This document shows, piece by piece, positions 54,530 to 58,358 of a DNA stretch of 58,358 nt. The position numbers and the translations under genes are program-made. How positions within the stretch are numbered: the stretch's first letter is position 1; every line of letters begins with the position of its first letter. The notes under the pieces are model-generated. The model was not told the origin of the DNA, made no database searches, and saw only the letters and a list, made by a program, of their open reading frames with translations. Source of the DNA: a virus; IMG/VR virus record IMGVR_UViG_3300034198_019339, positions 1 to 58,358 of that record, one strand, 5' to 3'.

Positions 54530-55120
54530 TTAATTTTTTTGTTTTAAATATCTATTTTTTCTTGCGGAATTTTTATTACGAGATTTGAAAGTACTTAATT
54601 GAGAATCACAATTAGGACAAACCAATCTTAAATTATTTCTATTGTTATTGGACGCATCTCCATCTATATGGTCTAGAACAAATACTAGAATTTTTCCCAT
54701 CCATTCATCATCCATATTACAAATAGCACATTTATGATTTTGTTCTTCTAAAAATTTTTTTTTAAAACTTCTTGGATTAAAATTTTCTCTACAATATTCT
54801 TGATTATTGTTGAGGAAATGTTCATATTTTTTTTTACTTAAATCTTTATGTTGACAATCTAAAGAACAATATTTTTTAGAAAAAAGATTACATTCTTTTT
54901 CACAATACACACATTTAATTATTTCGTATTTTTTACATTTACCATAATTGTGAGGCTTATATCCTTCAGGTATTTTTTTTCTGATTTTTAATTCAATTCC
55001 TAATTTTTTTGCAATTTTTTTTATGTAAGTATCAGAAACATTATATTTTTTTGCAATTTCAGTATAAGGTAAATTTTTATTAAAGATTAAATCTTCTAAA
55101 TCTTCTTTTATATATTTCAT
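54530..55120 (-). CDS. HNH endonuclease with HTH start
   Basis: 196 residues. N-terminal helix-turn-helix (YTEIAKKYNVSDTYIKKIAKKLGI), a Cys-pair zinc region (CVYCEKECNLFSKKYCSLDC) and an HNH fold (HKCAICNMDDEW ... FVLDHIDGDASNNNRNNLRLVCPNCDSQL). Such free-standing enzymes act in homing. It lies 81 nt beyond the tRNA-Arg gene, whose intron has no ORF. TATTTAT lies upstream. Confidence 0.88.
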   Translation of the reverse strand: MKYIKEDLEDLIFNKNLPYTEIAKKYNVSDTYIKKIAKKLGIELKIRKKIPEGYKPHNYGKCKKYEIIKCVYCEKECNLFSKKYCSLDCQHKDLSKKKYEHFLNNNQEYCRENFNPRSFKKKFLEEQNHKCAICNMDDEWMGKILVFVLDHIDGDASNNNRNNLRLVCPNCDSQLSTFKSRNKNSARKNRYLKQKN

Positions 55121-55201: not shown

Positions 55202-55484
55202 TGGTGGTCCCGGGGCGATTCGAACGCCCGACCGACTGCTTAGACATACCACTATGACTTTCGTCACCCTTTTGGTTTGTGGTCTGGACTATATCATCAT
55301 CCATTTTTAGGATGCTTCCCCCTTAGTCTCTACACACTTTCCTATTTGATAGGAGTTGGCTCGGTATTACCATCAGCATTATCTGTTAAGGTTTCACCGA
55401 ATTCGAGAAGTTCTATATATGAATTACTTCATATACGCCCCCTTTACTTGAGGCAGTTGCTCTATCCAGCTGAGCTACAGGACC
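55202..55484 (-). tRNA. tRNA-Arg (UCU), split by group I intron
   Basis: 5' exon 55484-55451 (GGTCCTG acceptor, D stem GCTC/GAGC, ACTGC of the anticodon stem, CT). 3' exon 55244-55202 (TCTAA, GCAGT, T arm CGGGC/GCCCG-like, CGGGACC, A, encoded CCA). Joined they give a normal cloverleaf with loop CTTCTAA, anticodon UCU. The intron lies between U33 and 34. It reads AGA/AGG codons, frequent in this AT-rich genome. Confidence 0.9.
55245..55450 (-). other. Group I intron in tRNA-Arg, no ORF
   Basis: 206 nt. The 5' exon end GCCU can pair with an internal GGGC about 10 nt into the intron, with U-G at the splice site. The intron ends in G. Core segments AATTCGGTGAAACC ... ACCGAGCCAA ... GTAGAGACTA ... 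ATAGTCCAGACCACAA match the P3-P8 core of group I introns, and match the Leu intron closely. Confidence 0.88.
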
Positions 55485-57029: not shown

Positions 57030-57524
57030 ATGAACAAAGTATTAGTTTTAAATTATGATTATACCCCACTCAATGTGACCTCTTTTACAAAAGGTTTTAA
57101 ATTGGTTTATAAGGGTAAAGCAGAGGTTCTGAAAGAGTCTGACACTCCCATATATACTGAGTATCAAAAATTTGTAAGACCTCTTATAATTCGTTTATTA
57201 AAGTATGTGAAGTTTCGTATTAAAAGTATTAAAGTTAATCGTTATAGAATTTACAGAAGAGATGGAGGAAAATGTGTTTATTGTGGGTCTCAAAAACAAT
57301 TAACCATTGACCACGTAATTCCTAAATCAAGGGGAGGTAAAAATAGTTGGACAAATCTTGTTACTTGTTGTCATAAGTGTAATCTTAATAAAGCAGATAG
57401 GACACCATCCGAAGCTAATATGTCATTTATAATTAATCCGTATGAACCTGATATTTTTTCAGATATTCTAAATAATTCCATTGAGACTATATGGAAAGAA
57501 TATAAATTATCGATAGGGATTTGA
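57030..57524 (+). CDS. HNH endonuclease
   Basis: 164 residues from ATG 57030. MNKVLVLNYDYTPLNVTSFTKG is the usual start of a widespread HNH family, with RRDGGKCVYCGSQKQLTIDHVIPKSRGGKNSWTNLVTCCHKCNLNKADR giving the two CxxC zinc pairs and the DHV-N-H active site. Fits both bacterial and phage free-standing enzymes. It lies just before the split tRNA-Leu gene. The frame open to 56994 is not used, because the promoter occupies it. Confidence 0.9.
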   Translation: MNKVLVLNYDYTPLNVTSFTKGFKLVYKGKAEVLKESDTPIYTEYQKFVRPLIIRLLKYVKFRIKSIKVNRYRIYRRDGGKCVYCGSQKQLTIDHVIPKSRGGKNSWTNLVTCCHKCNLNKADRTPSEANMSFIINPYEPDIFSDILNNSIETIWKEYKLSIGI

Positions 57525-57551
57525 TTATATATAAAAAATTATATATATTTG
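57520..57551 (+). promoter_or_regulatory. Host-like promoter for tRNA-Leu
   Basis: TTTG-N20-TATATTTG, exact consensus, 23 nt before the tRNA 5' end. Confidence 0.82.
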
Positions 57552-57625
57552 TATTGTTGTTCTTTGAAAGAAATGCTCGGGTGATGAAATTGGTATACAT
57601 GAGAGACTTTATTCTGTTTCGTTTG

Positions 57626-57632
57626 TATTTAT
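57626..57632 (+). promoter_or_regulatory. Candidate late promoter TATTTAT inside the intron
   Basis: TGTATTTATAAGTATG: motif, 4 nt, ATG of the intron HNH gene. Would allow late expression independent of the tRNA promoter. Confidence 0.6.
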
Positions 57633-57636
57633 AAGT

Positions 57637-58116
57637 ATGAATACAAAATATACGAAAGAATCTCTTGAACCTATAGTTAAAAGATGTGGCTCAATTAGAC
57701 AAGTTTTAAAAGAACTTGGACTAAAAGAATCAGGTGGTAACTACAAAAATATCAAAACAAGAATTAAATTGTTAGATATTGACACATCTCACTTCCACGG
57801 CATGTTATGGAATAAAGGTAAAACTTGGTCAAAAACTAAAGACCTTTCGTCCAAATTAGTTGAGTATTCAACATATAGTACAGGATTACCTGTATCAACT
57901 TATGTGTTGAAAAATCAACTATTAAAACTTGGTTATAAGGTGCACATTTGTGAAATGTGTAATAATACCAAATGGATGGAAAAAAAGATACCTTTAGAAC
58001 TTCATCATGTAAATGGAAATAGATTCGACAATAGGATTGAAAATATTCAATTATTATGTCCTAATTGTCACGCTTTGACTGATAACTATAGGGGAAAGAA
58101 TATGAGTGCTAGATAA
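57637..58116 (+). CDS. Intron-encoded HNH homing endonuclease
   Basis: 159 residues. N-terminal HTH-like DNA-binding part (SIRQVLKELGLKESGGNYKNIKTRI). HICEMCNNTKWMEKKIPLELHHVNGNRFDNRIENIQLLCPNCHALTDNYRGKN supplies the zinc Cys pairs and the HH...N...H site. It would cut intronless tRNA-Leu genes and spread the intron. Its own TATTTAT motif suggests late expression. Confidence 0.92.
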   Translation: MNTKYTKESLEPIVKRCGSIRQVLKELGLKESGGNYKNIKTRIKLLDIDTSHFHGMLWNKGKTWSKTKDLSSKLVEYSTYSTGLPVSTYVLKNQLLKLGYKVHICEMCNNTKWMEKKIPLELHHVNGNRFDNRIENIQLLCPNCHALTDNYRGKNMSAR

Positions 58117-58358
58117 GAAATTATCTAAGTAGAATTCCGTAAATTCGGTGAACCCTTTAGACTGGGAACGCCGAGCCAAGCCTTACAATAAGGAAGGTGT
58201 AGAGACTAGACACGGAACATCTAAGTCGAAAGATATGATGAAGGCATAGTCCAGACTACAAACTCAAATGAGGTGGTGAAAACCATAGTAGTAAGAAAAT
58301 CTCTTGGTCATTGCGACCGTGCGGGTTCGACCCCCGCCCCGAGTTCCAAAAAAATACC

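Follow-up and report, generated by a model that had tools for sequence, protein, structure and literature searches.

A probably mobile group I intron carrying an HNH gene in a phage tRNA-Leu(UAA)

The viral record IMGVR_UViG_3300034198_019339, a window of 58,358 bases that encodes T4-type major capsid, portal and terminase genes and whose capsid has Flavobacterium phages among its best named relatives, contains a tRNA-Leu(UAA) gene split by a group I intron with an HNH endonuclease gene in its P1 loop. From comparison with related loci, to which we gave L-numbers, we conclude that the intron is real and probably mobile, and we consider it likely that it arose by collaborative homing and is under T4-like control.

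Results

An IC3-like intron between U34 and A35

With introns disallowed, ARAGORN calls no tRNA at 57575; with introns allowed, it reports a tRNA-Leu(UAA) spanning 57575-58348 that is interrupted, after ACTT and before AAAA, by 686 nt of intron, so that U34 and A35 flank the insertion. Once the exons are joined, a clean and complete 88-nt tRNA-Leu(UAA) with a full cloverleaf results. The parts of the locus are as follows.

57575-57609, plus strand: tRNA-Leu(UAA) 5′ exon, last base U34 (ARAGORN with introns allowed and on the joined exons)
57610-58295, plus strand: IC3-like group I intron of 686 nt, ending in G58295 (ARAGORN, RF00028, alignment, covariance model)
57637-58116, plus strand: HNH endonuclease open reading frame (ORF), 159 amino acids, in the P1 loop, its 3′ codons overlapping P1, guide and P2 (PHROG 10822, alignment, AlphaFold 2 (AF2) model)
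58296-58348, plus strand: tRNA-Leu(UAA) 3′ exon, CCA encoded, discriminator U73 (ARAGORN, sequence)

Rfam RF00028 matches the intron at 58079-58276 with 49.9 bits (E 1.6e-11). The helices of the core, mostly placed by alignment, are these.

57606-57615, plus strand: P1 5′ side, exon ACUU (57606-57609) and extension UAUUCU (57610-57615), pairing with 58097-58107, with U57609·G58104 at the splice site
58097-58109, plus strand: P1 3′ side and internal guide AGAAUA-U-GAGUGC, within the HNH ORF (alignment)
58110-58127, plus strand: P2 hairpin UAGAUAA-GAAA-UUAUCUA (double-sided changes in 7 of 7 pairs over 35 introns)
58135-58217, plus strand: P3 (58135-58140/58212-58217), P4 (58145-58150/58169-58174), P5, P6, P6a and the P7 5′ side (58204-58208) (alignment)
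58218-58295, plus strand: P8 (58218-58221/58237-58240), P7 3′ side (58247-58251), P9 region and 3′-terminal G (alignment)

We aligned 35 distinct phage tRNA-Leu(UAA) introns over their exon ends and from the guide to the 3′ splice site, and counted pairs in the P1-P9 structure. Standard pairs fill 95.7% of pair cells, and 39 of 62 pairs show double-sided changes. These changes occupy 421 cells, compared with 140 after shuffling and 31-69 when the structure is slid, although the structure was drawn on the window's intron and is somewhat favoured over its slid versions by that choice; the double-sided changes in P2, P3, P5, P8 and P9 are independent of it. All six P3 pairs change on both sides and P7 is invariant, giving a P3-P9 core with a P3/P7 pseudoknot. 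All 35 introns have the U·G pair at the 5′ splice site, nearly all conserve GAGUGC as the guide ahead of P2, and the 3′-terminal G is present in the window's intron and the other listed introns. An alternative guide at 57659 (AAUCUCUU, within the ORF) could also pair with the exon, but it occurs in the window only and was rejected. As a separate observation, the 3′-exon sequence AATCTCTTG (58298-58306) recurs at 57659-57667, at the start of the HNH ORF, where it can pair with the 5′ exon; this repeat is confined to the window and possibly reflects chance.

A covariance model built from the alignment (model R1) gives 207.9 bits for the window's intron, itself a training row. Among held-out introns, it gives 220 bits for LR756501, 179 for Atu_ph07 and 105-197 for six bacterial loci; it finds no match in L007, L009, L292, L293 and L300, the loci that have the HNH gene but lack an intron. 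Introns of subgroup IC3 have a short P2, a small P5, no P7.1/P7.2 and similarity to bacterial tRNA introns. In the window, J7/3 is 3 nt, P7.1/P7.2 are missing from the fold, and the core pattern also matches tRNA-Leu and tRNA-Arg introns of many bacteria. By these sequence features the core is IC3-like, and none of its catalytic helices is broken or departs from the family consensus. The first-pass annotation had predicted a tRNA-Leu(UAA) split at U34/A35 by a group I intron with its own HNH gene, and had proposed group I models as a check; its coordinates for the split prove exact, and the core does fold.

An HNH gene that fills the P1 loop

Because ACUU|UAUUCU pairs with AGAAUA-U-GAGU across the gene, the whole HNH gene constitutes the P1 loop. 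The ORF begins 27 nt into the intron and its stop codon (58114-58116) lies in P2, so that the last codons (N-M-S-A-R-stop) double as the internal guide and as one half of P2. Since guide and HNH C-terminus occupy the same bases, translation and splicing must stay apart.

The protein matches PHROG 10822 at E 7e-44, and Pfam HNH_3 below cut-off only. It retains the C-x2-C motif, the zinc cysteines and the HNH residues, so its predicted active site is intact. The AF2 model (pLDDT 83) has a beta-beta-alpha arrangement, with weak fold matches in the PDB. Against five relatives, nonsynonymous divergence (dN) is 0.14-0.21 and synonymous difference (pS) is 0.68-0.78, with synonymous sites near saturation; by this measure the gene is under purifying selection.

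Candidate signals for the tRNA and the endonuclease

Three elements could control expression.

57521-57551, plus strand: host-like promoter TTG-N20-TATATTTG of tRNA-Leu, Bacteroidetes -33/-7 type (pattern scan)
57611-57661, plus strand: hairpin that takes in both TATTTAT and the start codon of the HNH ORF (folding z-scores, compensatory changes)
57626-57633, plus strand: TATTTATA, a promoter-like (late-type) motif (motif counts)

The TTG-N20-TATATTTG pattern, which we take to follow the Bacteroidetes -33/-7 consensus, is also present upstream of the window's tRNA-Met, tRNA-Arg and transfer-messenger RNA (tmRNA). Before the HNH start, TATTTAT-N4-ATG occupies 57626-57639. Of the window's 53 genes, 16 have TATTTAT in the 40 nt before their start, compared with a mean of 2.4 and a maximum of 8 in 2000 shuffled sets of upstream regions, and with 4 for its reverse complement. 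It stands 14 nt ahead of a free-standing HNH gene starting at 55120, is equally near the starts of other genes, that for the terminase among them, and keeps its intronic position in L003, L004, L005, L068 and L069. Its distribution makes TATTTAT a promoter-like signal throughout this phage genome and a candidate late promoter of the HNH gene.

The start-codon hairpin is stronger than in shuffles in the window, L003, L004, L005, L069 and L078 (z -1.8 to -4.1; window -3.1, L005 -4.0, L069 -3.2, L078 -4.1). Its outer stem is CGU/ACG in the window and L005 and UGU/ACA in L003, L004 and L069, and GUAU/AUAC alternates with GUGU/ACAC (L069). On the coding side, the compensatory changes among the window, L003, L004, L005 and L069 are synonymous, in Thr and Tyr codons. 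Both the host-like tRNA promoter and the TATTTAT-N4-ATG arrangement had been predicted in the first-pass annotation, together with a parallel to T4 introns whose endonuclease genes have late promoters; the conserved hairpin makes that parallel stronger than claimed.

Phage tRNA-Leu introns with and without ORFs

At least 58 clean phage tRNA-Leu(UAA) introns were found. Among the matches listed, 47 of 58 are ORF-less and about 200 nt long, and the remaining 11, all longer than 400 nt, carry an HNH ORF in P1, between 5′ splice site and guide, in 11 of 11 cases; the P1 loop measures about 8-12 nt in ORF-less introns and about 490 in the window. The ORF is of the window's HNH type in the window, L003, L004, L005, L006, L068, L069 and L078, helix-turn-helix (HTH)-HNH kin in L045 and L084, and AP2/HNH-like in L122, kinds that we named from the sequences, the library search having covered the window's HNH. 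The same pattern lists 46 bacterial tRNA-Leu(UAA) introns, among which none has an ORF and the longest is at most 288 nt; the search pattern bounds both samples. At least 34 viral contigs have the uninterrupted anticodon-arm site GAGAGACTTAAAATCTCTYGG, and thus represent intronless alleles with an intact target. A search for syntenic intronless relatives through the neighbouring 110-amino-acid gene found none.

In a tree of 191 cores and 133 columns, whose deep nodes are weak, the window's intron groups with phage introns only, within a clade of 12 (support 0.998) that mixes ORF-bearing and ORF-less members. Its nearest ORF-less kin in that clade are L072 and L152, and its sister L084 (0.945) carries a different HNH. 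Because this one clade mixes ORF states and HNH kinds, ORFs must be gained and lost or exchanged. The first-pass annotation had claimed rarity for ORF-bearing phage tRNA introns: phage tRNA introns as such are not rare (at least 58 in tRNA-Leu(UAA); Lak phages, 2019, PMC6784885), but the ORF-bearing form is indeed a minority (11 of the 58 listed).

Several other loci add to this picture. The cultured Agrobacterium phage Atu_ph07 (L288) has an unannotated, ORF-less 278-nt group I intron in tRNA-Leu(UAA) at about 1253-1614. In L006 (2489-3346) and L314 (1871-2734), the HNH frame runs on through guide, P2 and P3-P8 to 285-287 amino acids, with a zinc-finger/HTH domain inserted in P8 and a UAG stop in the P7 3′ strand. 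The two differ by indels of 9 and 15 nt, and third-position changes prevail in the P8 domain (27, compared with 11 and 7); the catalytic core therefore seems to be translated. In L155 and L190, which are IC3 introns from other tRNAs, the P1 loop contains a different HNH gene, placed antisense; this loop therefore looks like a repeated landing place. L010 (1042-1400) comprises an HNH C-terminus with PNYH for PNCH, an intron core and a 3′ exon, the 5′ exon being missing; trans-splicing was considered, but its contig holds no matching 5′ half, leaving a remnant or an assembly edge. The tRNA-Met of L049 (792 nt) seems to be a false call.

Endonuclease relatives at leucine tRNA genes

The closest non-intron homologs of the window's HNH are in phage tRNA arrays. 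A tRNA-Leu, mostly tRNA-Leu(UAG), lies within 150 nt of 15 of 25 free-standing homolog sites, a count that is not independent because the sites include several related phages; leucine accounts for 14 of the 111 other tRNAs in those arrays. The last HNH codons often extend into the adjacent tRNA-Leu, and L007 and L008 have an intronless tRNA-Leu(UAA) as neighbour of the HNH gene. Dulem virus 42 (L292, 1392-2009) has a homolog inside the tRNA-Leu anticodon loop, with both exons intact and the HNH stop codon in the loop, and model R1 finds no group I core there. In the huge phage LR756511, a homolog of the same HNH family occupies P6 of a tRNA-Leu(UAA) intron. The tRNA-Leu neighbours, Dulem virus 42 and LR756511 suggest that this enzyme lineage was pre-adapted to genes for tRNA-Leu.

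Free-standing HNH genes in L009, L300, L301, L302, L309 and others end a few bases from, or inside, the 5′ end of the next tRNA; that of L009 may take its stop codon from the conserved U8-A9-G10 of this tRNA.

A second intron and neighbouring HNH genes

The window has a second group I intron, in tRNA-Arg(UCU), and two free-standing HNH genes.

57030-57524, plus strand: second free-standing HNH gene, unrelated, just upstream of tRNA-Leu (PHROG 16726/Pfam HNH_5)
55451-55484, minus strand: tRNA-Arg(UCU) 5′ exon, last base U33 (sequence; called Arg(tct) by ARAGORN in its intron-aware mode)
55245-55450, minus strand: second group I intron, 206 nt, ORF-less, between U33 and U34 (RF00028 70.7 bits, model R1 133 bits)
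55202-55244, minus strand: tRNA-Arg(UCU) 3′ exon with CCA (intron-aware ARAGORN, sequence)
54530-55120, minus strand: free-standing HNH gene downstream of tRNA-Arg, in PHROG 10822 like the intronic HNH (PHROG match)

Local derivation of the tRNA-Leu intron from the tRNA-Arg intron was rejected, the two belonging to separate tree lineages.

Discussion

We propose that transcription from the host-like promoter would yield a precursor that self-splices to give a working tRNA-Leu, and that on this long precursor the hairpin would hide the HNH start. Late transcripts beginning near TATTTAT would lack the 5′ arm of the hairpin, allowing the HNH to be translated from a nearly leaderless message. In a mixed infection, the enzyme could then attack the intronless tRNA-Leu genes of the other phages, nicking or cutting them close to the anticodon, and the intron would be copied in during repair. 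Such an element could have originated when the endonuclease lineage that stands beside tRNA-Leu in tRNA arrays moved into tRNA-Leu introns that had no ORF, settling in their P1 loop, along the lines of the collaborative homing idea (PMC2988022).

Several points weigh against this proposal. The RF00028 score of 49.9 bits lies 0.1 bit under the gathering score (50). The discriminator at 58345 is U73, whereas A73 is found in 45 of the 47 other intron-bearing tRNA-Leu of phages, and the spliced tRNA may therefore be poorly charged. A T4-like start at a TATTTAT only 4 nt before the ATG would give a nearly leaderless mRNA. Of the free-standing homologs, 10 of 25 do not abut tRNA-Leu, and the adjacency count draws on related phages. 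Finally, splicing, cleavage and homing of this intron are steps that we infer from its sequence.

Some of these points favour other explanations. If the tRNA-Leu were dead or poorly spliced, the element could persist as parasitic DNA in a redundant tRNA gene; U73 would fit, as would the ability of the 5′-exon anticodon strand to pair with a UCUCU copy within the HNH ORF (z -3.9) and the example of Dulem virus 42, whose HNH splits tRNA-Leu without a ribozyme. We nevertheless regard this as quite unlikely, given catalytic helices that are all intact and match the family consensus and exons that form a full cloverleaf. The intron might instead be splicing-competent and inherited with its tRNA, the HNH ORF riding along as a passenger and playing no part in homing today. 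The prevalence of ORF-less introns (47 of the 58 listed) fits such a history, and the L010 remnant implies that these ORFs do decay. However, the window's ORF is intact, its C-x2-C and HNH residues are kept, its dN is low against near-saturated synonymous sites, and the different ORF types of the sister introns in the window and L084 bespeak turnover, not simple inheritance, so that a passenger ORF also seems quite unlikely.

With respect to expression, the intronic TATTTAT might be a chance AT-rich sequence, leaving the HNH to be expressed from the tRNA promoter only. Only 4 nt separate it from the ATG, too few for a leader of the T4 kind, and the excess of TATTTATA over the whole window is modest (23, compared with 15.4 in shuffles, and reached by 4 of 100). 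Its concentration on the sense strand upstream of genes, its similar nearness to the terminase and other starts, and its kept position in five related introns speak against chance, and we judge this explanation unlikely. As for two tRNA halves flanking an unrelated gene by coincidence, nothing but the sub-threshold Rfam score could be cited in favour; the same arrangement, with a covarying core, is repeated in at least 10 other phage contigs, and this possibility is already refuted, with practically no probability remaining. A mobile intron born of collaborative homing thus remains our preferred explanation.

Known systems resemble parts of this locus. The cyanobacterial and plastid tRNA-Leu(UAA) intron sits at U34/A35 and shares gene, site and IC3 type with the window's intron; as the first-pass annotation noted, this is the insertion site of the ancient intron, and site and subgroup are what suggest a possible cyanobacterial kinship. 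No ORF occurs among 242 trnL intron entries (PMC1995217), whereas in the phage an HNH ORF occupies the P1 loop. Likewise, ORF-less phage introns (L072, L152, Atu_ph07 and LR756501) have the same tRNA, site and core but no ORF. Introns in Lak megaphage tRNAs were called enigmatic, their class not being named in the main text (Devoto 2019, PMC6784885). L289 (Lak-C1, tRNA-Leu) and L320 (Lak-B1) match model R1 with E about 1e-10 and about 1e-11, respectively, and therefore at least these two are group I introns; they too lie in phage tRNAs, but an HNH ORF was seen in neither. In L289 (Prevotella phage Lak-C1, 860-1640), tRNA-Leu(UAA) seemingly has two group I introns, one in the D-arm region and one at U34/A35.

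The T4 td, nrdB and nrdD introns belong to another subgroup, interrupt protein-coding genes, carry their ORFs in other loops and in two of three cases encode GIY-YIG enzymes. Like the window's intron, they are phage group I introns with endonuclease genes (I-TevI, I-TevII, I-TevIII) whose 3′ ends overlap the core; they have a late promoter beside the ORF where the window has a promoter-like TATTTAT, and I-TevI has a hairpin over its translation start where the window has a predicted, conserved one (PMC2988022). I-Ssp6803I is likewise encoded in a tRNA group I intron, but it is a PD-(D/E)XK enzyme in the tRNA-fMet gene of a cellular genome, Synechocystis (PMC1995217). SegB of T4/T6 is a homing endonuclease of phage tRNA arrays that cuts tRNA genes, although it is a GIY-YIG enzyme and free-standing only (PMC13096335). 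A 2014 review placed all phage introns known by then in protein-coding genes (PMC3984707), and a search of open-access literature found no paper on HNH-bearing tRNA-Leu introns.

More broadly, the tRNA-Leu(UAA) intron is the classic ancient and apparently immobile intron, and here it takes an ORF-bearing phage form. The locus itself holds a possible way of separating translation from splicing where guide and C-terminal codons coincide. With relatives of its endonuclease beside tRNA-Leu, in an anticodon loop that lacks a ribozyme and in another loop of the same intron type, collaborative homing becomes directly testable, and the ORF-less member in the cultured phage Atu_ph07 makes splicing testable at once. 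These loci provide unusually good comparative evidence for the way in which a tRNA gene becomes the meeting point of intron and endonuclease, and the HNH relatives at leucine tRNA genes of many phages suggest how an ancient-looking intron may keep moving.
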